From positions 1-24,707 of the IMG/VR virus record IMGVR_UViG_3300005935_000131: a DNA stretch of 24,707 bases, one strand, 5' to 3'. The translations under genes and the position numbers were made by a program. Positions 2,377-24,707 of the stretch are shown here, in pieces. Position 1 is the first letter of the stretch. Each line of letters opens with the position of its first letter. The stretch is from a virus. The notes under the pieces were generated by a model. It did not search any database. It was given only the letters and a program-made list of their open reading frames with translations, and had not been told where the DNA came from.

Positions 2377-2819
2377 TTGAATAGATTTATGAATCGAGTG
2401 TTTCGATCCGTCCTATAATTTAATGGCACAAAATCAACAAAGGCATTATTCTCGATGGCCGCCTCCTCATCAATGATATCAGAATTTCCCCGCGCTGCCT
2501 GAATTGTGGTTTCCTCGTCAATGCATATCCCGATATGAACCGGCACGCCGCCTTCAAACCAAAAGACCATTGCTCCCCGGGACGGCTCGTGTGATATATT
2601 TTTATCCTCGGTGCTGAATTTATCCCAAAGCATCTGAACATTATAATCTCTCCCCTGATGAATGAACCCCATAGACCGCAGAACATTGCAGACAAAGGCA
2701 GAACAATCAATGCCATTAATCGAGTTACCTCCATATTTATAATATATACCCCACCACCTGTCAGCATATTCAATAAATTTTTGAATTTGTTTTTGTTTTT
2801 TACATTCGTGACAGTTCAT
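2373..2819 (-). CDS. NlpC/P60-family cell-wall hydrolase (endolysin), 148 aa
   Basis: Contains the NlpC/P60 core: YYKYGGNSINGIDCSAFV with candidate nucleophile Cys39, then VPVHIGICID with candidate His95. This family usually cuts peptide bonds in peptidoglycan stems, gamma-D-Glu-diaminopimelate being typical. I prefer the ATG at 2817-2819 (MNCHECKKQK): it has GGAGG five bases upstream and overlaps the previous stop (TAATG). An in-frame ATG four codons earlier at 2831 lacks this. The N-terminus has a CxxC pair. No signal peptide, so release depends on the adjacent holin candidate. Single-domain size with no separate wall-binding module, as is usual for Gram-negative phages. First gene of the lysis cassette. 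Confidence 0.85.
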   Translation of the reverse strand: MNCHECKKQKQIQKFIEYADRWWGIYYKYGGNSINGIDCSAFVCNVLRSMGFIHQGRDYNVQMLWDKFSTEDKNISHEPSRGAMVFWFEGGVPVHIGICIDEETTIQAARGNSDIIDEEAAIENNAFVDFVPLNYRTDRNTRFINLFK

Positions 2820-4891
2820 TAGTCCCTCCATCTTCCGAGTGCATCAAAGGCAACCTGGCTCGTATCATTGACCCAGACGTTCCAAGCATATTTATCAATA
2901 TAGTTTCCGAGCTTATCTTGGAACCTTACCCTGTAATAACTGGTATCGGATAGATTTTCATTTGCATATATCGGGATCTCAAACTGACCATTGACATCGG
3001 CGGTATCGTAAGTGATTTCCTGCATCACCAATGAATCGTGAAAGGTCAGCAAACTATCCTCGGGTACGGCAACCAATCGGAACATGACCAATGCACTATC
3101 ATATCGTTGACCACGCGGATCAATCAGCGTTCCATAAACGACCGCCTTGTTAGCATTGCTGGTATAAGTCCATATTGTATCTGTGAAAACTCCTGAGACG
3201 ACATTGCTGTCAAGGTATGGCGCTAAGCCTGCCGCCGTATGAAAGAACACCCAAGAGGCAGCATCCAGATTGAATTGAGCCAATCCGTTATTATCTGTTA
3301 AATCAAAATAAGGAACGGCCGTCTGCGCATAGTTATTCGCCCAGACCGGAGCCTGCTGAACTGGATCGGTGCCACCGTTGGAACTATCAATGACATAATA
3401 ATTAATTGTGAAAGCGCCATTGCCAGAGCTGCATCCCAATACTGCACGATACAATGCGCCAAAGAAAGAAGCGTTGCCGGTATCAGTTACCAATTTAAAG
3501 AATACACTATCGGCAATATCTCCTTTGTCACTATTAGATATTGATGCAACACCGCCTGCTGTTGATACGAGGGCATCTAAACTATCAAGCAAAACATCAG
3601 CCGCTGATCCGGGGATAGCGGTATATCCATTTAATAATTTACTCCAAACTGAGTCACCAAACTCAGCAGCCAACTCCATACGGTTTGCCAACAATAACGA
3701 ATCAGTATTTCGAGCAAAGTTTTCATCATTCATCATTGCTAATATTTGTGCCGTATCAGTTCCGGTTGCGCCGGAGTCAGATCGGTTTGCTAATGAATCC
3801 CAATATGAATCGCTAAAGTGTGGACCGCGAAATGCTTCAAGTTCAAAATTGGCAGAATCTAATGCCGCAATAAATGAAGCGACAGTCACATCACGCTCAG
3901 CCAGAGTCGATGAATCAGAACCGGTTGCCTTGGTGGTTCCCCATACAATTCGATGAAGCAATCGAGAAATCATTGCCGAATCCACGTTTGCCGCCCCACC
4001 CTGAACATAAGATGCATTCGTCAATGAGTCGCCCATAGTTCCATCCGCAAAAACTGTGTTGAATAATACATTCCAAATGTCTGTAGCTGCTAAGCCTGCC
4101 GCCGTACCTTGCGCGGAGTTAAAAAATTCAGTCGTGAACAGCCATGTCGGGAATGTTTCATTTGTAAAGTCTGCGCTATCAAGATCAAATCCCAATGAAC
4201 TCAACGAGGTCGCCGTCACTAAATATTGAAGCGAGTCACGAATCAAATCAATGTTGGCATCTATACCGTCGTTACCATCGCCGTCAGTGTAGGTAAGAAT
4301 CAAATCAACAATTGCATCGACTGTTGCCAATGCCGCCGATGTCGCCAATGCCGAAACATCTGCCTTATAGTTTGCAGGTGTTGACAGTTCACGGCCGCCA
4401 GTTGTCCAATTGTCTGCTGCACTATGAGTGCTAAAGCCCGTAGCGGTTATCAAATACTGGACCGAATCTCTGATTTTATCAATGTCATTTAATAATTGAG
4501 ACAAAAATGCACCGTCGCCGGTATCGCTTGGCAATCTTGTCTGGAATAAAGAGTCAAGAAAAACGGTAACGCTGGCATATCCGGCCGTATCTAATATGGA
4601 CGGTGTTTTATACACACTTCCAATCGTTTCAGAGTCAGACGATCCAACCGGCCAATAGAAAATCTTTACAAACAGATCTCCAATCTCACTAAGAGTCGGG
4701 ACCGCACCAAAGATCGTTCCATCGTCTTTAAATATCTGAGTCATCTTTAATCGATCCTGATCCCACGCGGTACTATCTTTCCCCATATATATAACGCCAG
4801 AATCAGCAGCTATCGGAGTGCTGAACGTGACCACCTGTGCATCGACATTGCAGGCAATTAACATTAAGAATATTAATAATATCTTTTTCAT
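2819..4891 (-). CDS. Secreted fibre-like protein with C-terminal Ig-like domain (690 aa)
   Basis: The N-terminus MKKILLIFLMLIACNVDAQV is a signal peptide, readable either as a lipoprotein signal (LIAC, Cys14) or as ordinary cleavage at VDA|Q. The body is rich in Asp, Ser, Thr and Ala and has repeated helical units such as DIDKIRDSVQYLITATG and NIDLIRDSLQYLVTATS, typical of elongated, probably trimeric appendages. Residues about 583-690 (AVVYGTLIDPRGQRYDSALV onward, with VNGQFEIPIY) resemble an Ig-like or carboxypeptidase-regulatory-like beta-sandwich. Last of five linked secreted genes; its ATG overlaps the previous TGA and has GAGG upstream. Probably a tail-tip appendage or adhesin. No enzymatic motif seen. 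Confidence 0.75.
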   Translation of the reverse strand: MKKILLIFLMLIACNVDAQVVTFSTPIAADSGVIYMGKDSTAWDQDRLKMTQIFKDDGTIFGAVPTLSEIGDLFVKIFYWPVGSSDSETIGSVYKTPSILDTAGYASVTVFLDSLFQTRLPSDTGDGAFLSQLLNDIDKIRDSVQYLITATGFSTHSAADNWTTGGRELSTPANYKADVSALATSAALATVDAIVDLILTYTDGDGNDGIDANIDLIRDSLQYLVTATSLSSLGFDLDSADFTNETFPTWLFTTEFFNSAQGTAAGLAATDIWNVLFNTVFADGTMGDSLTNASYVQGGAANVDSAMISRLLHRIVWGTTKATGSDSSTLAERDVTVASFIAALDSANFELEAFRGPHFSDSYWDSLANRSDSGATGTDTAQILAMMNDENFARNTDSLLLANRMELAAEFGDSVWSKLLNGYTAIPGSAADVLLDSLDALVSTAGGVASISNSDKGDIADSVFFKLVTDTGNASFFGALYRAVLGCSSGNGAFTINYYVIDSSNGGTDPVQQAPVWANNYAQTAVPYFDLTDNNGLAQFNLDAASWVFFHTAAGLAPYLDSNVVSGVFTDTIWTYTSNANKAVVYGTLIDPRGQRYDSALVMFRLVAVPEDSLLTFHDSLVMQEITYDTADVNGQFEIPIYANENLSDTSYYRVRFQDKLGNYIDKYAWNVWVNDTSQVAFDALGRWRD

Positions 4892-6891
4892 TTTTTAAAC
4901 CTCATCTTTTTTATAATTGCCGCTTCGGTTTCAAAATTAACGGTATCAGCTTTTGTATCCCAACTGACCTCAAGAGTGTCGAAAATTGTTTTACCGTTAT
5001 AAACAACTTGGATTAAAGCTGGATTATAATTAGTTGTATCGGTAGCTGTATTTGATTCATACCAATATTGAAATATCCCTGATGCAATTCCATCAACGCC
5101 CGATGTCGCAAGAAAAGAAGTGTCAGCCGCGACTGAGGTATCAGCTAAATTATTCCAGACGGTCACGGTTGCTCCGGACAACGGAGAACCATTAGACCGA
5201 ACCAATATTTCTAAGGTTGATTGTAACGCAAGTTCCGCCTCTCCCGTCCCAGAAAAGACAATATTTGTATCAGTCGCGCCATTTGTGTAGATACAATCTC
5301 TTCCAACATTATCAGGAGAATCGGAATTATAATACCCCATTGACCACGTTACCGGATCGTGAACAATACCAGAATCAGATGTGGTGTCAATGAATTGCAG
5401 GGTATCTTGATAAAAAGTTATAAATTTGATAGGAAGCCCATTTTCTATGTCGGAACCCCTGACAATAATACTGGAACTAATATAATGATTATTCTGTATT
5501 GTCACCGGAACCTGCGCCTCAGAAGTGAAACTCTGATAGATAGAGGCATTCATGGCACGAGTATCAGTTCCCTCGGTCAACGCCCTTCCTATCACAGTAT
5601 TATTTTCTATGCTGACATGACCATAACCGACATCATTTGGCAATAAGTTAAAGTGTAATACTGCGGCGGTTCTGCCAACTGCGGTAGTAGCGCTTGATGT
5701 ATCGGCGATTCCAATAAACGTATTATTCCTAACAGCAATATAATCACTATGTCCGCCGTCTATTGAACGCAATCTAAAGACTCTGGTTTCACCAAAGGGA
5801 CTCTCACCATTAGGACCATAGTGCGTTTCAATGTAATTGCCGGAAACAATGATTGAATCAGTTTCAGTTCCAGTACAATTTTCAAGACTCATACCCCTGC
5901 CGCCCTGGTGGTCAGGACTTGATGTAATGTGATTATTAAGTATTTTACTTCCCGCATATATCCTGCTTACAAATATTCCGTAACAATTTGTTGAGGATTT
6001 TCCGACTGGACAGATACCCTTTGAAAAACAATCGGTAATAGAATCGCAATTTACTCCCAGTGTATCGGGACAATTGGATGAATCCATGAACTTATATGTC
6101 CCACCATCATAAGGATACCAATAAATATTATTAGTAGTTGTGTCCCAATAAACATTTTGAGCGTCCACCTCTATATTACAGTTTTCAACAAAAACCCTTG
6201 CTTCATTCATGTAAATACCGGCGTGAGGTGTCCTCGCCACAGTAACATTATGTAACTCTAAATTATACTTTCCAGCAGCTGGAGTTTCCTGCACCTGCCC
6301 GAAATATATCGCTATACTACCACCAGCAAAAGATTCTCTGCTTGAATAACTTGTGCTATTATTAGTCCATGTCCCACCATGAAAAACATTATTTACCCCT
6401 GATTGTTCGTTAAATACACAAATAGCATCATGTCCATCCACAGTTACGCCAACCGAATCAAAAGTAACATCGTTCAACCCGTAAGTATTGATGCCAATTT
6501 TTTTTTCGCTAACATCCACACCATCACCTTCATCTGATATAATATGCCCCCCTCGAAAATGAGAGCCATCGCCTCCTCTGATAAATATACCAATAGCCCT
6601 ATCCGATGGAGTCGTGGTTGCGGCAGTATCAAAATATATAACCGTATTACCAAAATCGACATCAACATTAGTGACTTGGTTCATCAAGAGAATATTGTAA
6701 TAATATGATTTACTATCAAAAGAGAATAAAGTCCCACTTCCTACATATATCGTGTCATTGGGATCACTAAATGTAATAGTATCTCCGGTGCTAACGGCAT
6801 AAGGTAAATCGGTCTGTTCAAGAACCACTTGTCCAGCCATTGCACTTGAGGCAAATAATGTTACGACTAATATAGTTAATAAATTTTTCAT
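4888..6891 (-). CDS. Secreted right-handed beta-helix protein, tailspike-like (667 aa)
   Basis: Signal peptide MKNLLTILVVTLFASSAMAG with cleavage near AMA|G (residue 19). Residues about 75-500 are a run of short strands with Asn/Gly turns (FHGGTWTNNSTS, ILNNHITSS, VSGNYIETHYG, VRNNTFIGIAD, IENNTVIGRAL, IQNNHYISSS), the pattern of parallel beta-helices in pectate-lyase-like folds and phage tailspikes. Residues about 555-650 form an Ig-like sandwich (LEILVRSNGSPLSGATVTVW), related in style to the next gene's C-terminus. Tailspike helices often bind or cut surface polysaccharide, but I cannot point to a catalytic site. Coupled by four-base overlaps to the genes on both sides. Confidence 0.75.
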   Translation of the reverse strand: MKNLLTILVVTLFASSAMAGQVVLEQTDLPYAVSTGDTITFSDPNDTIYVGSGTLFSFDSKSYYYNILLMNQVTNVDVDFGNTVIYFDTAATTTPSDRAIGIFIRGGDGSHFRGGHIISDEGDGVDVSEKKIGINTYGLNDVTFDSVGVTVDGHDAICVFNEQSGVNNVFHGGTWTNNSTSYSSRESFAGGSIAIYFGQVQETPAAGKYNLELHNVTVARTPHAGIYMNEARVFVENCNIEVDAQNVYWDTTTNNIYWYPYDGGTYKFMDSSNCPDTLGVNCDSITDCFSKGICPVGKSSTNCYGIFVSRIYAGSKILNNHITSSPDHQGGRGMSLENCTGTETDSIIVSGNYIETHYGPNGESPFGETRVFRLRSIDGGHSDYIAVRNNTFIGIADTSSATTAVGRTAAVLHFNLLPNDVGYGHVSIENNTVIGRALTEGTDTRAMNASIYQSFTSEAQVPVTIQNNHYISSSIIVRGSDIENGLPIKFITFYQDTLQFIDTTSDSGIVHDPVTWSMGYYNSDSPDNVGRDCIYTNGATDTNIVFSGTGEAELALQSTLEILVRSNGSPLSGATVTVWNNLADTSVAADTSFLATSGVDGIASGIFQYWYESNTATDTTNYNPALIQVVYNGKTIFDTLEVSWDTKADTVNFETEAAIIKKMRFKK

Positions 6892-7877
6892 AAATCAATG
6901 CCCCTTAAATTTACAGCCCTCATTTTCTTTGCTCCGGTAAATGATCCTACATAATAAATCCATCCAACTCCATGAGCAACAGCAATTGTATCTGTGGCCG
7001 TCATAGTTATAGTGCCTTTATTATCGACTGCTAAAACATTAATCCTTGTCCCACCGTGCATCTTGAGAACCCCACCGGAGTTAATAGTAATATGAGCAAA
7101 GGTCGTGTCATAGTCGCTGTCAAAATCAGCTCCCTCACAGTCAATCAAACAGTCACCAGTTGAATAAGTTGGCTGAATAACGTGCATTGTATCACCAGTG
7201 GTAATAACTAAACTGTCCTCTTGGGTCGGATTGAAGTATCCTAAATTTTGAGGGTTGTCCCATAAATTGAAACTATCAGTTGCGACCTCACTGGTTGTAT
7301 AAAGATTGTTCGCCCATGTATTAGGAATCCTAACCGTGAAAAATGAGTCAGGATAAAAGGGAATCCAAGTTGGATCATTAAAATATTGTAATACGATATA
7401 TCCTTTATATGGTAGACCCGGTTCTAAATCATAATTTGTCTCATTGACTAAAGTATCAATCCAATGTGAATTTTTGGTGCTGTCGTTAGCACCCAGTGGT
7501 GGTTTTTCAGTGAAATCAATTACTCTTGTTGAATCAGCTGTAAACCATGTCTGCCGGTCAAGAGTATGAACAGAAAATGAGGGGAAATCTTGACACCACC
7601 AAACGCCTTGACTTCCAAATAATTGAGCCATCATATTTGCATCGTCATTATCCCAATCAAGATTTAAACTAAACTGAGATGATGTTATACCAGAAATCGT
7701 TTTCACTAAGTTGGATGGTCGCCGAGATATATGAAACCTATGATGGAAATTATGATACAGTGCATCACCGGGGTCATCGTAACTTGAATATGTTCCCGGA
7801 AAATCAGTCGCTTTCCTGTCGGCTCCAAGCGTTGATACCGCCATCAAGAAAACTAATGTGCATATTAAATATTTCAT
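6888..7877 (-). CDS. Secreted protein of the appendage cluster, unknown fold (329 aa)
   Basis: Signal peptide MKYLICTLVFLMAVSTLGAD (cleavage near residue 19). The mature part is rich in Asp, Thr and aromatic residues. Near the end, HITINSGGVLKMHGGTRINV and VDNKGTITMT look like beta-helix or solenoid rungs, so the C-terminus may be a short helix related to the next gene's domain. The front half (LDWDNDDANMMAQLFGSQG onward) is not recognised. ATGA overlaps on both sides imply co-translation with the neighbouring appendage genes. The ribosome site is weak, so translation probably depends on coupling. Confidence 0.65.
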   Translation of the reverse strand: MKYLICTLVFLMAVSTLGADRKATDFPGTYSSYDDPGDALYHNFHHRFHISRRPSNLVKTISGITSSQFSLNLDWDNDDANMMAQLFGSQGVWWCQDFPSFSVHTLDRQTWFTADSTRVIDFTEKPPLGANDSTKNSHWIDTLVNETNYDLEPGLPYKGYIVLQYFNDPTWIPFYPDSFFTVRIPNTWANNLYTTSEVATDSFNLWDNPQNLGYFNPTQEDSLVITTGDTMHVIQPTYSTGDCLIDCEGADFDSDYDTTFAHITINSGGVLKMHGGTRINVLAVDNKGTITMTATDTIAVAHGVGWIYYVGSFTGAKKMRAVNLRGIDL

Positions 7878-8935
7878 TGTATTATTATCACCCGCGCAAC
7901 ACTTCCACTTACTGCGGCTGTAATATGATGATATACCGTTACATTTATTTGAGTTAATTTTTGAAAACTATGAAAACTAACATCACTTTCCATACCAACC
8001 TCCAAAGCATCTATTTTAGCCACTGACCAAGACCCCGTTGGATGAGCAATTATTTCATTGACTAAAGTATCATATGCTGTGGGCAACTCAGTCGTCTCAT
8101 AAAGTGTGCCATATTCAATATTAGACCCATCATATAAAAATGCTCTCGCTGAGTTGCCTGCAGCTTGTTTATCCGTTTGTATCACAGCCACCACCCTAAC
8201 TGAATCAATAATAGCATCTGCACTTTCTCCTGCATCGGCAACCCAATTTTGTAATCCAAGTGATATTTTTTTGTCCGAAGTTGCGCCAGCCAACGACATA
8301 ATTGTTGTCTCGCCGTCATGCGTAGGCCATTCATCAACTAAATCGTCACAGTCAGTCATCCCGCAGTTCCAAGCAACCTCATATGTTCCTTCGGCATTCG
8401 GCAACAGGACCGTTTCATAACCGGGAGTGTAAACAGCGTAAAAACTGATAGTAACGGCTTGGCCTGCGTCATCATCAGCACTTACTGGCCAAGTGACAAA
8501 GGGCGTTATGAAATTAGTTCTTGTCTCATTAGCCACACCCTCAACATATTTAACTTTAAAACCATCAGACGTAGATTGCGCACTAAGCCAATAATCAGTG
8601 CTTGCCAAGAATCTTATATCTTGAATTACTGACAATGGAATCCATGCTCCACTTTCTCCTAATGTTACTTCGGCAGTTGAATCCATAACTGTGCCCGGTG
8701 TCCCGTCCCCCTCATCACCATAAAAAGATAATTTAACTTCATCGGGAGACGATACATCCCAAGCATATATTACCAATGAGTCTAAAGTTCCGTCAGTTGC
8801 CCCAGACGTTACCTTGCACCATATCATGTTATTGTCATAAGCTCCCTCAAAATAACTAACGGAAGTATTTCCAAATTGTTCTTTTGCCCCAACAATCGAG
8901 AATAATAATAATAATGAAATCAAATATTTAATCAT
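7874..8935 (-). CDS. Secreted virion-type protein with two beta-sandwich domains (353 aa)
   Basis: Signal peptide MIKYLISLLLLFSIVGA (cleavage near residue 17). Residues about 25-170 carry the pattern of a jelly-roll domain seen in many phage and surface proteins: VKLSFYGDEGDGTPGTVMDS, GAWIPLSVIQDIRFLASTDYWLSAQ. Residues about 172-350 follow a second layout common in phage structural proteins: ETVLLPNAEGTYEVAWN, WPTHDGETTIMSL, IIDSVRVVAVIQT, GSWSVAKIDALEVGM, then strands to the end. These modules are usually found in tail-tip or fibre proteins and may bind glycans. A four-base overlap joins it to the 968-aa fibre gene, with GGTGG before the ATG. Confidence 0.7.
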   Translation of the reverse strand: MIKYLISLLLLFSIVGAKEQFGNTSVSYFEGAYDNNMIWCKVTSGATDGTLDSLVIYAWDVSSPDEVKLSFYGDEGDGTPGTVMDSTAEVTLGESGAWIPLSVIQDIRFLASTDYWLSAQSTSDGFKVKYVEGVANETRTNFITPFVTWPVSADDDAGQAVTISFYAVYTPGYETVLLPNAEGTYEVAWNCGMTDCDDLVDEWPTHDGETTIMSLAGATSDKKISLGLQNWVADAGESADAIIDSVRVVAVIQTDKQAAGNSARAFLYDGSNIEYGTLYETTELPTAYDTLVNEIIAHPTGSWSVAKIDALEVGMESDVSFHSFQKLTQINVTVYHHITAAVSGSVARVIIIQ

Positions 8936-11838
8936 TTGTCCACCGTATAATTTATTTTAAATATTGCTTGCGTTATATCATCGTCGGGATCAGCATCAAA
9001 TAAAATATATAAACACTTACCCGCTGGAACAGTTGCATCACCAAAACCAGCTACAACCGTTGTTACTCCCGCTACCGTCGCAGAATCATCTATTACTGCC
9101 GCGCTTGCAAATCCTATTAAGGCATCAGCCCATTTAATTGAATATTCTAATTCGTCTGTAGGATCAGCATTTAATGAAACACTATAACTTACAATTGTGA
9201 TTGCATCCGTTGTGGCTTTATCAAAGCACCATTCATGGTCTAAAGTGTAAAGACCATCAGGATCAGCTAAATTAAAATTATAACTCAATGTGTCGTGTAT
9301 ATTTGTTCTATCAGCAAGTGCTGCCGCTATTTTTGTGCCTAATGTATCAACATCAGTTACCGCTGAGCCAGTGGTATCTATATCTTCCCAACCGATAGTC
9401 GCATCACCAAAATGAGTTGAATCCATTGCCCCATTATCCCAAACCGCAACCGTATCTATAACTTTATTAAGTTGGTCTGTTGTTATTGTAGCACCATCTA
9501 ATATTTCCAACTCGGCTTCAGAAATAACAGCGGCACCGTAAACAAAATGAGAATTTATTACCAGAGAATCGACGTCCATAATAATAGCATCACCAGAATC
9601 AATTCCAGTTTTACCGGGACCACCAAAAGTTTGACTTGTTAAATTTGAGCCAATTGCATAAGTAATATCTCCAGCTCCGTCATTAATACAGATTAAAACA
9701 GTGTCGTTATTTTCATCAATTACATAAGTAGAATCATACCCAACTGCATTATTATCTGATGTCCAAAATTTCTTTACATCGCCTTCTTTAATCACATCGC
9801 CTTTTAAACTATCACCATCATTCAACTGTACTGCATTCATTATTATTCCAGTTGTCGCAACAAGATTTACTGCGGTGGCATCACCTACTCCAGTTATATC
9901 ATTTGTTCCCATTGCAAGATTAGCACCCATTGTTAAAATACCATTAATTTCAGCTACACCATTTACATCCAAACTATCAATATCAACATTGCCATCAAAC
10001 TGAGCTGAATCAGCAATTAGCGTTCCCGTAAAAGATGGATCAACTAATATAGTTGAAGCAAAAGCAGCGGTATCAGATTCCTTTAAATATTGTGTATGAT
10101 CATCATCAGCAAGCCCCGACAGCGCGCCGTGATCTGACGTGGTCGCTCCTACAAATGATGTTGTCCAAGGATATTCAATACTATAAATTCCATCACCTTG
10201 CTTAACTATCACCTTAGCAATAAAAACTCCCGATGAGGCAACAATGCCGGGTAAAGTCGTGACTACCTCCTTACCGAGCGCACCAGCAAGTGAGTATCCT
10301 CCGCTAACAGTAACGGAATCATAGATTGCGACTAATTCGTTATCTGTCATCATATAAATCCAAAATATATTAAATTTGTTAGAAACCAACGTTCTTCTTG
10401 TTCCGTCACCATCATCATAATGAACATCATTTAACATATTTGTATCTAACTTAGTAAAACTACCGGCTCCATTACCCCAATATTGAACCATGCCATCAGT
10501 GAAGCTCGCAACAGATGTTATTACGTTTCTATTGTGCCCTAAATAATAAGCCCCGGCAGTAACATCAATATCATTTGTATCAACATTTGCGCCTGCGCCA
10601 GTAACTATACCAAAACCTCTTTGTAAATTATACAATTCAAATAATCTAAGCGTATTTTTATGACTGTAATTAGAGAAATTTTGCCCGCCTTGCGTGATAT
10701 GCATGTGGTTACCCTCTCGATACACTTTACCCAAAGCAACTTTAGTCGTAAAATCAAGAGTGCTAAAAGCAGCTAATTTTATACTCGGGCTTCCACCATC
10801 ATAGTCAATATAAGACCATAAATCAGTAGAGTCAGTGACTGCTAAATCAACTCCGGCACTAAAATTTAAGAAAACATTCTCGCCAATATCTGAGTTGGTT
10901 TTCTTTAGCACCGCTGTCCCGGAGGTTACATCAAGCTTAGTTGAATCGGTTACATCTTGTGACATTATGCCACCAGATATTATATATGCTGATTGAGTTG
11001 TATTCCACCAATCTGCAAGAGTTTGATATGTGGCACCATCAAGGGTATCGTGAATAATAGTCTCATCTGGTTTTAAAGTTATTTGAATTGCACTATCAAT
11101 TTGATTTATATCTTCTGCCAATACCGCTCTGTTTATATTTGCCAGTATTGACCCTTCAGAAATATGAGCATTTGCTATTGTTCCAACTGGAACAATAAAG
11201 TCACCATTTCCGGGTTTTGTTTCTGTCCACATTCCAGCTGTGATTTCAGACAAAAATATTTGTCCACCTTCGGTTGCACCATCGGTATTCAAGTCCCTTA
11301 TTATACCGTTGGTTGTAATATACCCAAATGTTCCTAATTCAATATCATGTGTAGCAAGACCAATAACTAAAGACGTGGCAACAGCATCAGCTTGAGCTAA
11401 ATCAATAGTTGGTATGTGAGCATTTGTTCCGGTCTGATAAACCAATTCTCCATTATCAATCGCAACATCAGCCTGAACTCTTATCCAGAACTCCTGCCCA
11501 ACTTGCAACGTCACATCTGATTCATCATTATAAAAAGCAAAAGTGTGATTGTCCTTATCATAAAAAAGAAGCCCTTCTTGATGGCTTGGTTCAGTTGTCA
11601 TTAACTCAAAATAAGCATTAAGAACATCGTGAATAGAGTTTGAATCCATTCCAATCGGTCCAAATGTCGTATCACCACCCCTGCTGAAAAAATTCCACGT
11701 GCTATCAATCATCATTGAATCAGGTGGTACAATAATCTGCGCTTGGGCACTCGGGTATATGCCCCACATAACAAAGAAAAATACCGCAATGGTAATCAAC
11801 ATCAATATTTGTCCGGGCGTGTGTTTTTTCAATTTCAT
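8932..11838 (-). CDS. Large tail-fibre protein carrying an N-terminal signal peptide (968 aa)
   Basis: Residues about 569-585 are DHGALSGLADDDHTQYL, a motif typical of phage tail fibres, and about 778-790 is ILDGATITTDQLNKV, another common fibre motif. DGATYQTLADWWNTTQSAY near residue 268 and the DSAQFDGNVDIDSLDVNGVA repeats near 610-640 are also fibre-like. The N-terminus, however, is MKLKKHTPGQ, a hydrophobic stretch (11-28) and PSAQA|Q, a well-formed Sec signal with cleavage near residue 33. GGAG six bases upstream fixes the start. It opens the chain of five secreted appendage genes. Likely the main host-recognition fibre; why it should carry an export signal is unclear. Confidence 0.85.
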   Translation of the reverse strand: MKLKKHTPGQILMLITIAVFFFVMWGIYPSAQAQIIVPPDSMMIDSTWNFFSRGGDTTFGPIGMDSNSIHDVLNAYFELMTTEPSHQEGLLFYDKDNHTFAFYNDESDVTLQVGQEFWIRVQADVAIDNGELVYQTGTNAHIPTIDLAQADAVATSLVIGLATHDIELGTFGYITTNGIIRDLNTDGATEGGQIFLSEITAGMWTETKPGNGDFIVPVGTIANAHISEGSILANINRAVLAEDINQIDSAIQITLKPDETIIHDTLDGATYQTLADWWNTTQSAYIISGGIMSQDVTDSTKLDVTSGTAVLKKTNSDIGENVFLNFSAGVDLAVTDSTDLWSYIDYDGGSPSIKLAAFSTLDFTTKVALGKVYREGNHMHITQGGQNFSNYSHKNTLRLFELYNLQRGFGIVTGAGANVDTNDIDVTAGAYYLGHNRNVITSVASFTDGMVQYWGNGAGSFTKLDTNMLNDVHYDDGDGTRRTLVSNKFNIFWIYMMTDNELVAIYDSVTVSGGYSLAGALGKEVVTTLPGIVASSGVFIAKVIVKQGDGIYSIEYPWTTSFVGATTSDHGALSGLADDDHTQYLKESDTAAFASTILVDPSFTGTLIADSAQFDGNVDIDSLDVNGVAEINGILTMGANLAMGTNDITGVGDATAVNLVATTGIIMNAVQLNDGDSLKGDVIKEGDVKKFWTSDNNAVGYDSTYVIDENNDTVLICINDGAGDITYAIGSNLTSQTFGGPGKTGIDSGDAIIMDVDSLVINSHFVYGAAVISEAELEILDGATITTDQLNKVIDTVAVWDNGAMDSTHFGDATIGWEDIDTTGSAVTDVDTLGTKIAAALADRTNIHDTLSYNFNLADPDGLYTLDHEWCFDKATTDAITIVSYSVSLNADPTDELEYSIKWADALIGFASAAVIDDSATVAGVTTVVAGFGDATVPAGKCLYILFDADPDDDITQAIFKINYTVDK

Positions 11839-21839: not shown

Positions 21840-23351
21840 CTAAGCAGTCACCACACCGAAACCGGTCGCGGTGACTGGTTCGGCAGTTGGATCAAACATA
21901 TTCTTGAAATCACCCCGCCAGTATGCAATGATATCATAGACATCATAATACGGGTTGCGAACGATTTCCATCTGAATAGTACGCCACAATCCAAGCATAT
22001 ATGAACTCTTATGGACCATTTGGAGAATAGACCGGTCATTACCGGCAGCAGCATATATACCAGTGGGATCATAAGTGTCGAGAACAAACTCGGACGTTCT
22101 GACATCGGAGCCATTGATCTTGCCCAGTGTTCCGGCAACAACCGTCGCATTCGGGCCGTACTTATCAATGGTTCTGAATGATGGCATTTCATCAGGGTCA
22201 AGGACATGCAACAGGAATCCGACAATCGACATCAGTTGATAGAAATCGTCCGGGTTAGCAAAATACTTACCACCCTTTGACCTCAACAGGTTCAGATTGG
22301 TTTCTGAGAATGTCGAGAGATCGACCTTACTGGCGGCCAGAGTATCAACACGGAATCCGTTCCAACAATATCGGGCATCGGTCGCTCCGGGTGTGTCGCC
22401 CGAATCAAGACCGGTTCCACCGGCATCATCACCGGAAAGCATCGCCCAATCGATTGACCGAGCAATCGAATTTGATACTTTGCCTTCGATATAATCGATG
22501 ACACTGATAATCAAATCCTCGTCAGCTTCACCGGAGTACTGAGTCCGTCCACGCAACTTTTCAGCGGTGTATGTCTTGTTGGCCGATCCCGGAGTCTGTG
22601 ATACCGCGTCAAAACCGGAAACAAGAGTCCCCCGCTGAGTCACACGGGTTGCCAGAGTATCGGCACCCTCAACCGGCAAGACCTGAATGGAAGCGATCAT
22701 CGGGAATGTCGGATGCATCGGAGCAATGACAAGAGCCTGTCGAACCATCGCCGTCATACGAGCCGAGTAACCGGTTTCCAGATATTCAGCGCCCTCGTCT
22801 GATCCCGCAGTATCGAAAGCGGCCTTTGACATCATCTCATATTCTTTGTGGCATTTCAGGTTATTCATTCGGACTTTTCGTGGTGCAGTGAAATAGCCAG
22901 TTCCGGCATGTTTCGACTGTGCGCACATGATGCCATCAACGAGAATGACCTGATCATGTTTTCGCTGCAATGCATCTATCTGCCCTGCCTTCTCAGCGGA
23001 GAACAGGCTTTTGAATTGAGCGGCAGGCATACTCAGCAAATCCTTGACCTCAAAGGGTATTTCATTGCTGCCGCCGTATGGAATTTTGGATTCGGTTAAC
23101 CGCTGAATTTCTTTGGTCTGGGCATCAATCGCTGACTTGACATCGGTGCCAATCTTCTCGACGTATGCTTTTGTCTCGCCCGCCGTTTTTAATTCCCTTT
23201 CGTGGGCACTTTTCATCGTGGCAAGCAATTGATTGACATCGTCGATTTCCTTCCGAACCTCGCCGACTTTCACCGTCGCCGCCTCTGCCGCTGTCTTTGA
23301 TGCTGCGGCTTCATCCTGCAATTTTTTGATTTCCTCAGGAGTCAGAGACAT
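21840..23351 (-). CDS. Probable internal-start product: scaffold plus major capsid protein (503 aa)
   Basis: An in-frame ATG at residue 192 of the fusion (MSLTPEEIKKLQDEAAASKT) has AAAGGA six bases upstream, stronger than the site of the full-length start. It falls exactly between the protease and scaffold regions, where a separate capsid gene would normally begin. Starting here would give the usual HK97-like delta domain (about 100 residues) followed by the capsid fold. It would let the phage make many capsid subunits for each protease copy. This is predicted from the ribosome site and domain boundary. Confidence 0.65.
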   Translation of the reverse strand: MSLTPEEIKKLQDEAAASKTAAEAATVKVGEVRKEIDDVNQLLATMKSAHERELKTAGETKAYVEKIGTDVKSAIDAQTKEIQRLTESKIPYGGSNEIPFEVKDLLSMPAAQFKSLFSAEKAGQIDALQRKHDQVILVDGIMCAQSKHAGTGYFTAPRKVRMNNLKCHKEYEMMSKAAFDTAGSDEGAEYLETGYSARMTAMVRQALVIAPMHPTFPMIASIQVLPVEGADTLATRVTQRGTLVSGFDAVSQTPGSANKTYTAEKLRGRTQYSGEADEDLIISVIDYIEGKVSNSIARSIDWAMLSGDDAGGTGLDSGDTPGATDARYCWNGFRVDTLAASKVDLSTFSETNLNLLRSKGGKYFANPDDFYQLMSIVGFLLHVLDPDEMPSFRTIDKYGPNATVVAGTLGKINGSDVRTSEFVLDTYDPTGIYAAAGNDRSILQMVHKSSYMLGLWRTIQMEIVRNPYYDVYDIIAYWRGDFKNMFDPTAEPVTATGFGVVTA

Positions 23352-23924
23352 ATTATTTCCTTTCTTGATCTGCACCGACTTATTGTGCATGATACTTTTA
23401 AATTCATTACATTGTAATTCAAGGTCAAGTGCAGCAGCCTCAGTGAAGACCGCTTCAAAATTCATACCCAGATTAACCACTGAGATTTCAGAAATTGATT
23501 CAAATTCATTGATAGTCCGAATTCCCTTTTCTTCGTCAATGCTGTATTTCTTGACGCGGTAGGTATATGAGAATGAATTGATGACACCGGCCTTGACCAG
23601 CATGATAACATCTTTACCCATTGATTCGGTTGGCAATAACTGGATGCTTGCCCATAAGCCTTTATGCTCATCAACTCGCAGTGCCAATGCTTTACCGACC
23701 GGCAGATCATGGTAATTGTGCATGAACAGGACGATAGGCTTTTCTTTATATTTAGCGAGAACCTCGGGAGTGAAAGCCTTCGGCTCAACAATATCCATGC
23801 CAGCGTCCAGATCGGGAGTGCTGACATAGCCTTCAATGATAATCGAGCCGTCGATCTGAGCGGCGGCTTTCGATACATCAAAGTTGAATTGTTTCTTGCC
23901 TTCTATGTCGAACTTCTTTTTCAT
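21840..23924 (-). CDS. Fused HK97-type prohead protease and major capsid protein (694 aa)
   Basis: Residues about 15-165 match the HK97 prohead protease (peptidase S78) layout: IIIEGYVSTPDLD, KPIVLFMHNYHDLPVGK with candidate His69, GVINSFSYTYRV with candidate Ser119, and ISEISVVNLGMNFEA with candidate Glu146. Residues about 195-275 are a coiled-coil scaffold (delta) region, and about 320-694 are the HK97-fold capsid with a long N-arm, e.g. YLETGYSARMTAMVRQALVI and MIASIQVLPVEGAD. Protease, scaffold and capsid are thus one frame. The protease would cut away itself and the scaffold during maturation. The ATG at 23922-23924 has only a weak GGGG upstream, in contrast to a strong internal site at 23351. 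Confidence 0.85.
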   Translation of the reverse strand: MKKKFDIEGKKQFNFDVSKAAAQIDGSIIIEGYVSTPDLDAGMDIVEPKAFTPEVLAKYKEKPIVLFMHNYHDLPVGKALALRVDEHKGLWASIQLLPTESMGKDVIMLVKAGVINSFSYTYRVKKYSIDEEKGIRTINEFESISEISVVNLGMNFEAVFTEAAALDLELQCNEFKSIMHNKSVQIKKGNNMSLTPEEIKKLQDEAAASKTAAEAATVKVGEVRKEIDDVNQLLATMKSAHERELKTAGETKAYVEKIGTDVKSAIDAQTKEIQRLTESKIPYGGSNEIPFEVKDLLSMPAAQFKSLFSAEKAGQIDALQRKHDQVILVDGIMCAQSKHAGTGYFTAPRKVRMNNLKCHKEYEMMSKAAFDTAGSDEGAEYLETGYSARMTAMVRQALVIAPMHPTFPMIASIQVLPVEGADTLATRVTQRGTLVSGFDAVSQTPGSANKTYTAEKLRGRTQYSGEADEDLIISVIDYIEGKVSNSIARSIDWAMLSGDDAGGTGLDSGDTPGATDARYCWNGFRVDTLAASKVDLSTFSETNLNLLRSKGGKYFANPDDFYQLMSIVGFLLHVLDPDEMPSFRTIDKYGPNATVVAGTLGKINGSDVRTSEFVLDTYDPTGIYAAAGNDRSILQMVHKSSYMLGLWRTIQMEIVRNPYYDVYDIIAYWRGDFKNMFDPTAEPVTATGFGVVTA

Positions 23925-23939
23925 GCTGTTACCCCGACG

Positions 23940-24539
23940 CTATCTTTTAGGCTGCATGTGAATACGAATCCGGTAACTGACACCAGCCTCAACTCGCCCG
24001 AGAACGTCGCTTGTATCTGCAATCGCATAATTGAAATTGAAGAATACGTTATCGCCGATACCCGATGTGCCGATTCCAGGTGGCAGTGTGAAAAATACCG
24101 TGTCATAAGATTTGCCGCCGGTATAAACCGTGAGTGATCCCACCTCCAATATAGTTTTGACGGTTCGCCCATAATCATAGGACGTGAACATCGTATACGT
24201 CAGTGAATCTTTTGATGTATCGATGACATCTGCGGCTGACGCACCAGTATCACCAGCGAGGATGATTGTCGATTCAATATAAATATATCCTTCAATGTCA
24301 CCATAGTCGCCTAATCCGGTAAAGAAGAACGGCACCGCCGGGCCAACGGTTGAATCAATGCCCTTAGTTGTCGCGGCCGATCCGGTATCAAGCGGAATCT
24401 TTGCGGTCGTATAGGTCATGCTGTATGGCGGCAATGTCCTCGGCCCGGCCTCGGCATCCTCGACAATATTCATCGAGGCGAAGATCCCAGTTACAACCAA
24501 CATCGCTATCGACGGCCACAGTTTCAGTTTTGATTTCAT
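23940..24539 (-). CDS. Signal-peptide-bearing protein in the head module (199 aa)
   Basis: I start at MKSKLKLWPSIAMLVVTGIF (ATG at 24537-24539) because AAGGA lies six bases upstream. A start five codons earlier, overlapping the previous stop, is possible. A basic end, a hydrophobic stretch and VEDAEA|G make a convincing Sec signal (cleavage near residue 31). The mature part is beta-rich and looks like a single sandwich: EGYIYIESTIILAGDTGAS, SLTYTMFTSYDYGRTVKTIL, NVFFNFNYAIAD, VSYRIRIHMQPKR. It lies between minor head protein and protease-capsid, where a scaffold or head protein is expected. A secreted protein there is odd. Family unknown. Confidence 0.65.
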   Translation of the reverse strand: MKSKLKLWPSIAMLVVTGIFASMNIVEDAEAGPRTLPPYSMTYTTAKIPLDTGSAATTKGIDSTVGPAVPFFFTGLGDYGDIEGYIYIESTIILAGDTGASAADVIDTSKDSLTYTMFTSYDYGRTVKTILEVGSLTVYTGGKSYDTVFFTLPPGIGTSGIGDNVFFNFNYAIADTSDVLGRVEAGVSYRIRIHMQPKR

Positions 24540-24550
24540 CTCAATTCCTT

Positions 24551-24707
24551 TCATTCAAAATGCTCAATCGTAGTGCATCGACAGTTGATTGTCTGTCCGG
24601 GTGAACCGGCAGGGTCTAACGGGTATCGCAATTTATCACCACCTACGGTGAACGGCTCATTAATCTCAACTTTCTGCCCATCGGCGAAAGTATGATCAGG
24701 TCGCGTC
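24551..24707 (-). CDS. C-terminus of a Mu gpF-like minor head / head morphogenesis protein (partial)
   Basis: Fifty-one residues are visible before the stop: TRPDHTFADGQKVEINEPFT, VGGDKLRYPLDPAGSPGQTI, NCRCTTIEHFE. The R.DH....DGQ.v.....F..gG..l.yP.DP..spg..iNCRC pattern is the signature C-terminal end of the phage Mu gpF-like head morphogenesis family, with its conserved Asn-Cys-Arg-Cys. These are minor capsid proteins near the portal. The rest of the gene, and presumably portal and terminase, lie beyond 24707. The stop TGA overlaps a possible ATG of the next gene. Confidence 0.9.
   Translation of the reverse strand, partial: TRPDHTFADGQKVEINEPFTVGGDKLRYPLDPAGSPGQTINCRCTTIEHFE

Follow-up and report, generated by a model that had tools for sequence, protein, structure and literature searches.

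A single gene of a viral genome fragment, in which a prohead protease, a scaffold-like segment, and a capsid domain are fused in one frame, very probably encodes two proteins, of 694 and 503 amino acids, as judged from its sequence and from those of its relatives. The fragment, hereafter the window, is the whole 24.7-kb stretch of DNA analyzed (24,707 nucleotides; IMG/VR record IMGVR_UViG_3300005935_000131); a second contig is near-identical to it (2 differences in 6865 bases). Initiation at position 23924 would yield a 694-amino-acid protease–scaffold–capsid protein, and initiation at the ATG at 23351 would yield a 503-amino-acid scaffold–capsid protein. The gene is very likely to act as such an in-frame nested pair, the products of which co-assemble and of which the protease removes the scaffold. 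Specifically, the long and short forms would assemble together into the procapsid, the capsid part of the long form would bring the protease into the shell, so that separate targeting would be unnecessary, and the protease would then cut away the scaffold segments. The claim of two products follows from the comparison across relatives rather than from the site in the window taken singly.

Gene and Domain Organization

The first-pass annotation had placed protease, scaffold, and capsid in one frame, and this is borne out by a single open frame whose domains were assigned by profiles and by a structural model (Table 1). The 694-amino-acid protein passes the cut-offs of Peptidase_S78 (PF04586; 58.6 bits, cut-off 21) and TIGR01543 (70.2 bits, cut-off 59). 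His69 and Ser119, which we take to be the catalytic residues of the predicted protease, are invariant in an 18-sequence alignment. In the capsid half, the Phage_capsid profile (PF05065) gives a weak score of 19.2 bits, below its cut-off of 24.2, and the score of the whole protein against the fusion family NF045541 is 36.4 bits (cut-off 525), by which it is not a member. The AlphaFold2 model of the protein (mean pLDDT 56.8), for which an alignment with 18 rows of fused proteins was used, is confident for protease residues 28–162 and of low confidence for residues 164–196, and shows a long helix from residue 196. The helices predicted with low confidence in the scaffold-like segment span residues 196–243, 249–278, and 310–338. 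The best matches of the model among solved structures are the capsids of DT57C (E 5.8e-15) and T5 (1.5e-13; Foldseek, top matches 5.8e-15 to 2e-11), and thus the capsid half belongs, by its modeled structure, to the T5 branch of HK97-fold capsid proteins.

Table 1. Features of the fused gene in the window.
Feature	Position	Strand	Basis
Full-length frame, 694 amino acids: protease, linker, scaffold-like segment, and capsid	21840..23924	-	Single open frame
Shine–Dalgarno-like GGGGT of the full-length start, six bases before the ATG	23931..23935	-	Duplex −6.3 kcal/mol
S78 (HK97-type) prohead protease domain, residues 25–158	23451..23852	-	PF04586, TIGR01543
Low-confidence interdomain linker with internal start signals, residues 164–195	23340..23435	-	AlphaFold2 pLDDT < 50
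Internal Shine–Dalgarno AAAGGA	23358..23363	-	Duplex −5.6 kcal/mol; counterparts in relatives
Candidate internal initiator ATG, residue 192	23349..23351	-	ATG/GTG at the corresponding place in relatives
Nested frame, predicted 503-amino-acid scaffold–capsid protein	21840..23351	-	Start aligned with that of separate T5-like capsid genes
Helical, scaffold (delta-domain)-like segment, residues 196–338	22911..23339	-	AlphaFold2 helices, low confidence
HK97-fold capsid domain, residues 385–694	21843..22772	-	Foldseek

The Two Candidate Start Sites in the Window

The internal AAAGGA is separated from ATG192 by exactly six bases (AATAAT) and lies at the protease/scaffold boundary, as had been claimed: the protease profile ends at residue 158 and the helix begins at residue 196. 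Pairing of the internal site with ACCUCCUUA amounts to −5.6 kcal/mol, and the mRNA is only weakly structured around ATG192 (15.6th percentile of the gene). Two of the 24 internal in-frame ATGs of the gene reach −5.5 kcal/mol or better. The ATG192 site by itself is not significant, as random synonymous recoding equals its strength in 24% of draws (P about 0.24).

The full-length start, GTCGGGGTAACAGC-ATG, pairs with the anti-Shine–Dalgarno sequence at −6.3 kcal/mol, compared with −5.6 kcal/mol for the internal site, and a simplified model of initiation, in which mRNA structure is taken into account, slightly prefers the full-length start in the window (0.7 vs. 1.7). The earlier statement that the full-length site is weak is thus not upheld. 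Of the original proposal, the second start that yields free scaffold–capsid protein is retained because of the conserved site (see below), whereas the asymmetry of ribosome sites finds no support in the window, either in the pairing energies or in the model.

Among the surrounding genes, the next one upstream (positions 1–1770 of locus L002) appears by eye to encode a portal–MuF fusion, and two fused head genes may therefore stand in a row. As a negative control of one gene, the portal–MuF frame has 2 of 24 ATG/GTG codons at −5.4 kcal/mol or better, neither of which lies, by eye, at the domain junction. Between the portal and protease–capsid genes is a 204-amino-acid frame with a signal-peptide-like start (window 23940–24554, minus strand; L002 1767–2381), for which no match was found in Pfam or PHROG. 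In all, seven frames, each on the minus strand, have starts that resemble Sec signal peptides by eye (1452–1928, 2819–4891, 4888–6891, 6888–7877, 7874–8935, 8932–11838, and 23940–24554). These are mostly located in a block after the tail genes; such starts are unusual for phage structural proteins.

Conservation of the Boundary Start among Fused Genes

Scans of IMG/VR together with phage records gave 185 loci, and 179 frames match a protease query. The E-SVV motif is carried by 167 of these frames, and the twelve without it were left out. A downstream in-frame capsid match defines 120 of the 167 as fused, the other 47 being split or undetermined. The fused frames are redundant, with some contigs fetched repeatedly, and collapse to 51, 33, and 17 lineages at 90, 70, and 50% identity, respectively. 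With the window protein alone as query, the first viral scan retrieved nothing beyond one near-identical contig, and the first scan of genome contigs with the window clade as query retrieved no relative.

A boundary site was defined as an ATG or GTG that lies 15–130 codons after the protease motif and has a duplex energy of −5.4 kcal/mol or lower. Such a site is present in 119 of the 120 fused frames and in 50/51, 32/33, and 16/17 lineages at 90, 70, and 50% identity, whereas in-frame ATGs elsewhere reach the duplex threshold in only 4.9% (120 frames), 4.6% (51 lineages), 5.2% (33), and 6.6% (17) of cases. Conservation of the internal site in related fusions, which the first-pass annotation had proposed as a test, is thus found in 32 of the 33 lineages, and likewise in 21 of the 22 genes of a second clade described below. 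From this conservation we infer that both starts are used in the phage of the window. When synonymous codons were shuffled and the search was repeated (500 shuffles), a mean of 16.9 and a maximum of 23 of the 33 lineages had a site, in comparison with the 32 observed. In a fixed-site test the null mean was 12.6 and the maximum 21 (observed, again, 32/33), and other in-frame ATGs, used as the control, show no excess over their own null. In this S78/T5-like group, the sites were picked as the best in the boundary region, a choice for which the shuffle with repeated search corrects and the fixed-site test does not. Weak sites are found in L102 (only −3.5) and L204 (only −4.3), and the site of L108 is ambiguous.

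The top-scoring codon of the window lineage is the GTG at residue 218 (+62 after the motif), and ATG192 is also above the threshold; the ATG of L002 was set by hand where the script had taken another codon. GTG218 was considered as a start and rejected: its duplex (−7.5 kcal/mol) is better than that of ATG192, yet it lies inside a predicted helix, and no similarly strong counterpart is seen by eye at this place in L008, L027, or L028.

In 29 of the 33 lineages (28 after GC correction), mRNA structure is weaker around the boundary starts than elsewhere in the gene. The residues encoded at the Shine–Dalgarno sequence vary (KKG, CGG, RKE, KKE, EEK, QER) and all three codon phases are used, which indicates that the nucleotides are kept rather than one peptide. 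The conserved Shine–Dalgarno sequence also codes for lysine, glutamate, and glycine, and the amino acids therefore account for part of the signal; the synonymous null alone yields about half of the sites. In L008, the capsid of which is 46% identical to that of the window, a GTG with an upstream GGAGG (−10.6) stands in place of the window ATG, and L208 is the other lineage in which the capsid Met is lost and a GTG with a very strong site is found (−10.8). L027 has AAGGGG-ATG (−7.4), and L028 has AAAGGAG-ATG (−8.2) followed by MSLTD (MSLTP in the window). Where the length of the linker changes, the boundary site is still found, at different distances.

Some fusions have further features in this region. 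In those of about 920 amino acids (L072, L086, L084, and related), roughly 119 codons separate the protease motif from the strong start (GAGGAGG, −11.8), and the region between the protease and this start contains histidine-rich segments (GHYH, GHTHD); L084 and L085 have, in addition, another strong ATG at +81 (−10.6). In L045 and L174, the Shine–Dalgarno sequence overlaps an earlier ATG (ATGGAGAAAACAATG), resulting in two in-frame ATGs four codons apart.

A Second Fused Clade, with Members in Escherichia coli Prophages

Of 5426 complete E. coli genomes, 1241 contain prophage fusions of the NF045541 kind. The sample of this second clade consists of phage and E. coli records plus 26 genome loci, in which 24 frames are fused. 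The best-scoring boundary start is the homologous capsid start itself in 17 of the 24 frames, and in 6 others it is no more than four codons away. In L188, the homologous ATG, which was set by hand where the script chose another codon, is slightly outscored by a neighboring GTG. After the removal of two duplicates (n = 22), the boundary start is ATG in 21 genes and GTG in one, its Shine–Dalgarno sequence passes −5.3 kcal/mol in 21 of 22 (null mean 9.0, maximum 15), and all 22 have low mRNA structure. The 14 fused-gene records inspected (L188, L190, L191, L192, L194, L195, and L223–L230, which include the ClpP-type fusion of mEp043, L225) each present a single coding sequence for the gene, and the nested one is never annotated.

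Fused, Split, and More Distant Relatives

When the fused (55) and split (22) states of 77 rows are mapped on a tree of the protease, 10 changes are required, at least seven of which are forced by well-supported branches. In the T5-like relatives with two genes, the gap between these is 3 bases in JSF10, 2 in PG07, and 17 in T5_ev219, and the internal Met of the window aligns with the capsid gene start of JSF10 and PG07. In split members of the second clade, too, the capsid gene starts at the equivalent position (Moraxella Mcat7 and Mcat6, SOVA965, L215–L217, and L219–L221), with weak sites at some of these starts (L215, −3.2; L216, −4.5; L219, −3.1 and −2.8). Fusion would occur through loss of the protease stop codon, with the capsid start retained. 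In Stenotrophomonas phage SOVA965 (L193), about 120 bases lie between the protease and capsid genes, and the capsid is annotated as two overlapping frames, which suggests a recent break or a frameshift.

Fusions of the c2 and ClpP types are more distant and were examined singly, without a null. In gene l5 of Lactococcus phage c2, AAAGGAG lies ahead of ATG131 (−8.7, 3rd percentile of structure); bIBB27 and STA74 have an AAAGGAG-type boundary site as in c2, and GE1 has a weaker one (−6.0). According to the c2 record, the first residue of the mature capsid protein is encoded by codon 206 of the fused frame. This position is some 75 codons past the proposed internal start, as expected if a scaffold segment is cut off. 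Among the ClpP-type fusions, Gifsy-2 ATG221 (−8.8, 4th percentile of structure) is at the boundary between the protease and the central region, and mEp043 ATG188 (−6.2, lowest structure) and D14L ATG220 (−6.9, 2nd percentile) are at positions homologous to it. RcBaka has ATG214 (−5.6, 7th percentile). ClpP and S78 proteases are unrelated, and a layout shared by both would therefore be convergent.

These comparisons point to what is probably a rule of tailed-phage heads: in-frame fusion of a protease to the capsid protein would require that the capsid retain its own start. The database “fusion proteins,” among them those that about one in four complete E. coli genomes carry, would then be two-product nested genes, split and fused states would be toggled by loss and regain of the protease stop, and the layout would have arisen both with S78 and with the unrelated ClpP type.

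Product Ratio and Alternative Explanations

Compared with the best upstream Shine–Dalgarno sequence, the internal one is the stronger in 15 of 32 lineages and the weaker in another 15, with 2 ties. When pairing, spacing, start codon, and mRNA folding are combined in a crude model, the internal start is favored in 22 of 33 lineages (the opposite in 8) and in 18 of 20 genes of the second clade, two of the 22 having been left out because they lack an upstream candidate; in the window it is not favored. It is rather unlikely that, given two starts, the full-length form predominates in this phage. The slightly stronger full-length Shine–Dalgarno sequence of the window and the slight preference of the simplified model agree with such a balance, but the model is crude, the difference amounts to about 1 kcal/mol, and the lineages as a whole favor the internal start. 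An output of few fusions and many capsid subunits is plausible. The reported content of HK97 procapsids is about 60 proteases to 415 capsid proteins, and that of D3 procapsids about 90 proteases (PMC12749128), which suggests that a modest product ratio would suffice.

The same HK97 figure bears on whether a short product is needed at all. Improbably, the full-length protein might be the only one made, with the protease cutting the linker to free the capsid and the internal site being a relic of once-separate genes. Prohead proteases of this type are described as cutting themselves and their neighbors, for example P2 gpO (PMC7552001), and the c2 record indicates that cleavage does occur in fusions, with the cut well past the internal start. 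However, a relic would decay, whereas the site persists among lineages less than 50% identical to each other, exceeds the synonymous nulls, lies in open mRNA, and is found at varying distances as linker length varies; in addition, one protease per capsid subunit would be far in excess of the HK97 number (PMC12749128).

If both starts of the nested pair are used, free capsid protein could in principle come mainly from a separate internal transcript, as with the UL26.5 promoter inside herpesvirus UL26. A sigma-70-like match is present just upstream of the internal start (23418–23389, minus strand), but promoter-like matches are at chance level (7 found vs. 5.0 ± 2.5 expected) and the UL26.5 promoter is described as a eukaryotic arrangement (PMC2949831); this source of the short product is very unlikely, and an internal promoter was rejected for it. 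Least credible is the idea that the linker Shine–Dalgarno sequence is no start but delays ribosomes and thereby gives the protease time to fold ahead of the capsid part: the site does lie between two domains, but a pause requires no initiator codon, the homology-defined capsid start of the second clade itself bears the site in most frames (and is at most four codons away in nearly all others), the open mRNA structure is typical of starts, and split relatives start a gene at the same place. That all 55 sites of the fixed-site test are initiators is no evidence in itself, as they were chosen among ATG/GTG codons.

Comparison with Known Systems

Protease–capsid fusions and nested in-frame protease/scaffold genes are already known. 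The former include a ClpP–capsid fusion in 17 siphovirus prophages of Paracoccus (PMC6536676), a fusion in a thaumarchaeal provirus (PMC6563490), and, by annotation, PAJU2. Among the papers listed by searches of the open-licence full text of PMC, none was seen to describe an internal start in a protease–capsid fusion. In a one-gene protease–capsid design, a nested start would be a way to avoid one protease per shell subunit, and current annotation would overlook a major virion protein.

The closest capsid fold is that of T5 and its relatives, which have a homologous protease and a capsid gene that starts where the internal start of the window lies; they differ in that the two genes are separate and adjacent. 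In NF045541 fusions (E. coli prophages, PAJU2), the domain order and the kind of boundary start are the same, but the window protein scores far below the family cut-off, as given above, and its capsid is T5-like. Salmonella phage Gifsy-2 likewise has a tripartite frame (Effantin 2010) of protease, central region, and capsid, and ATG221 lies at the boundary, but its protease is of the ClpP type, not S78. The l5 gene of Lactococcus phage c2 shares the protease–capsid fusion and the AAAGGAG before ATG131, but its full-length frame starts with a TTG preceded by a very strong site, and it is absent from the listed matches of the window protein.

In lambda, the Nu3 scaffold is translated from an internal start within the protease gene C. 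As predicted for the window, a protease gene thus holds, in the same frame, a shorter product with the same C-terminal part; however, the nested product of lambda is the scaffold, the capsid protein E being separate, whereas that of the window would include the major capsid protein. An interaction between C and Nu3 has been described (PMC3224144). Herpesvirus UL26 and UL26.5 are nested in-frame genes for the capsid maturation protease and the scaffold (PMC2949831). UL26.5 differs from the nested frame of the window in having its own promoter and in encoding scaffold only. The gene of the window would be a translational parallel to herpesvirus UL26/UL26.5 and to retroviral Gag/Gag-Pol.
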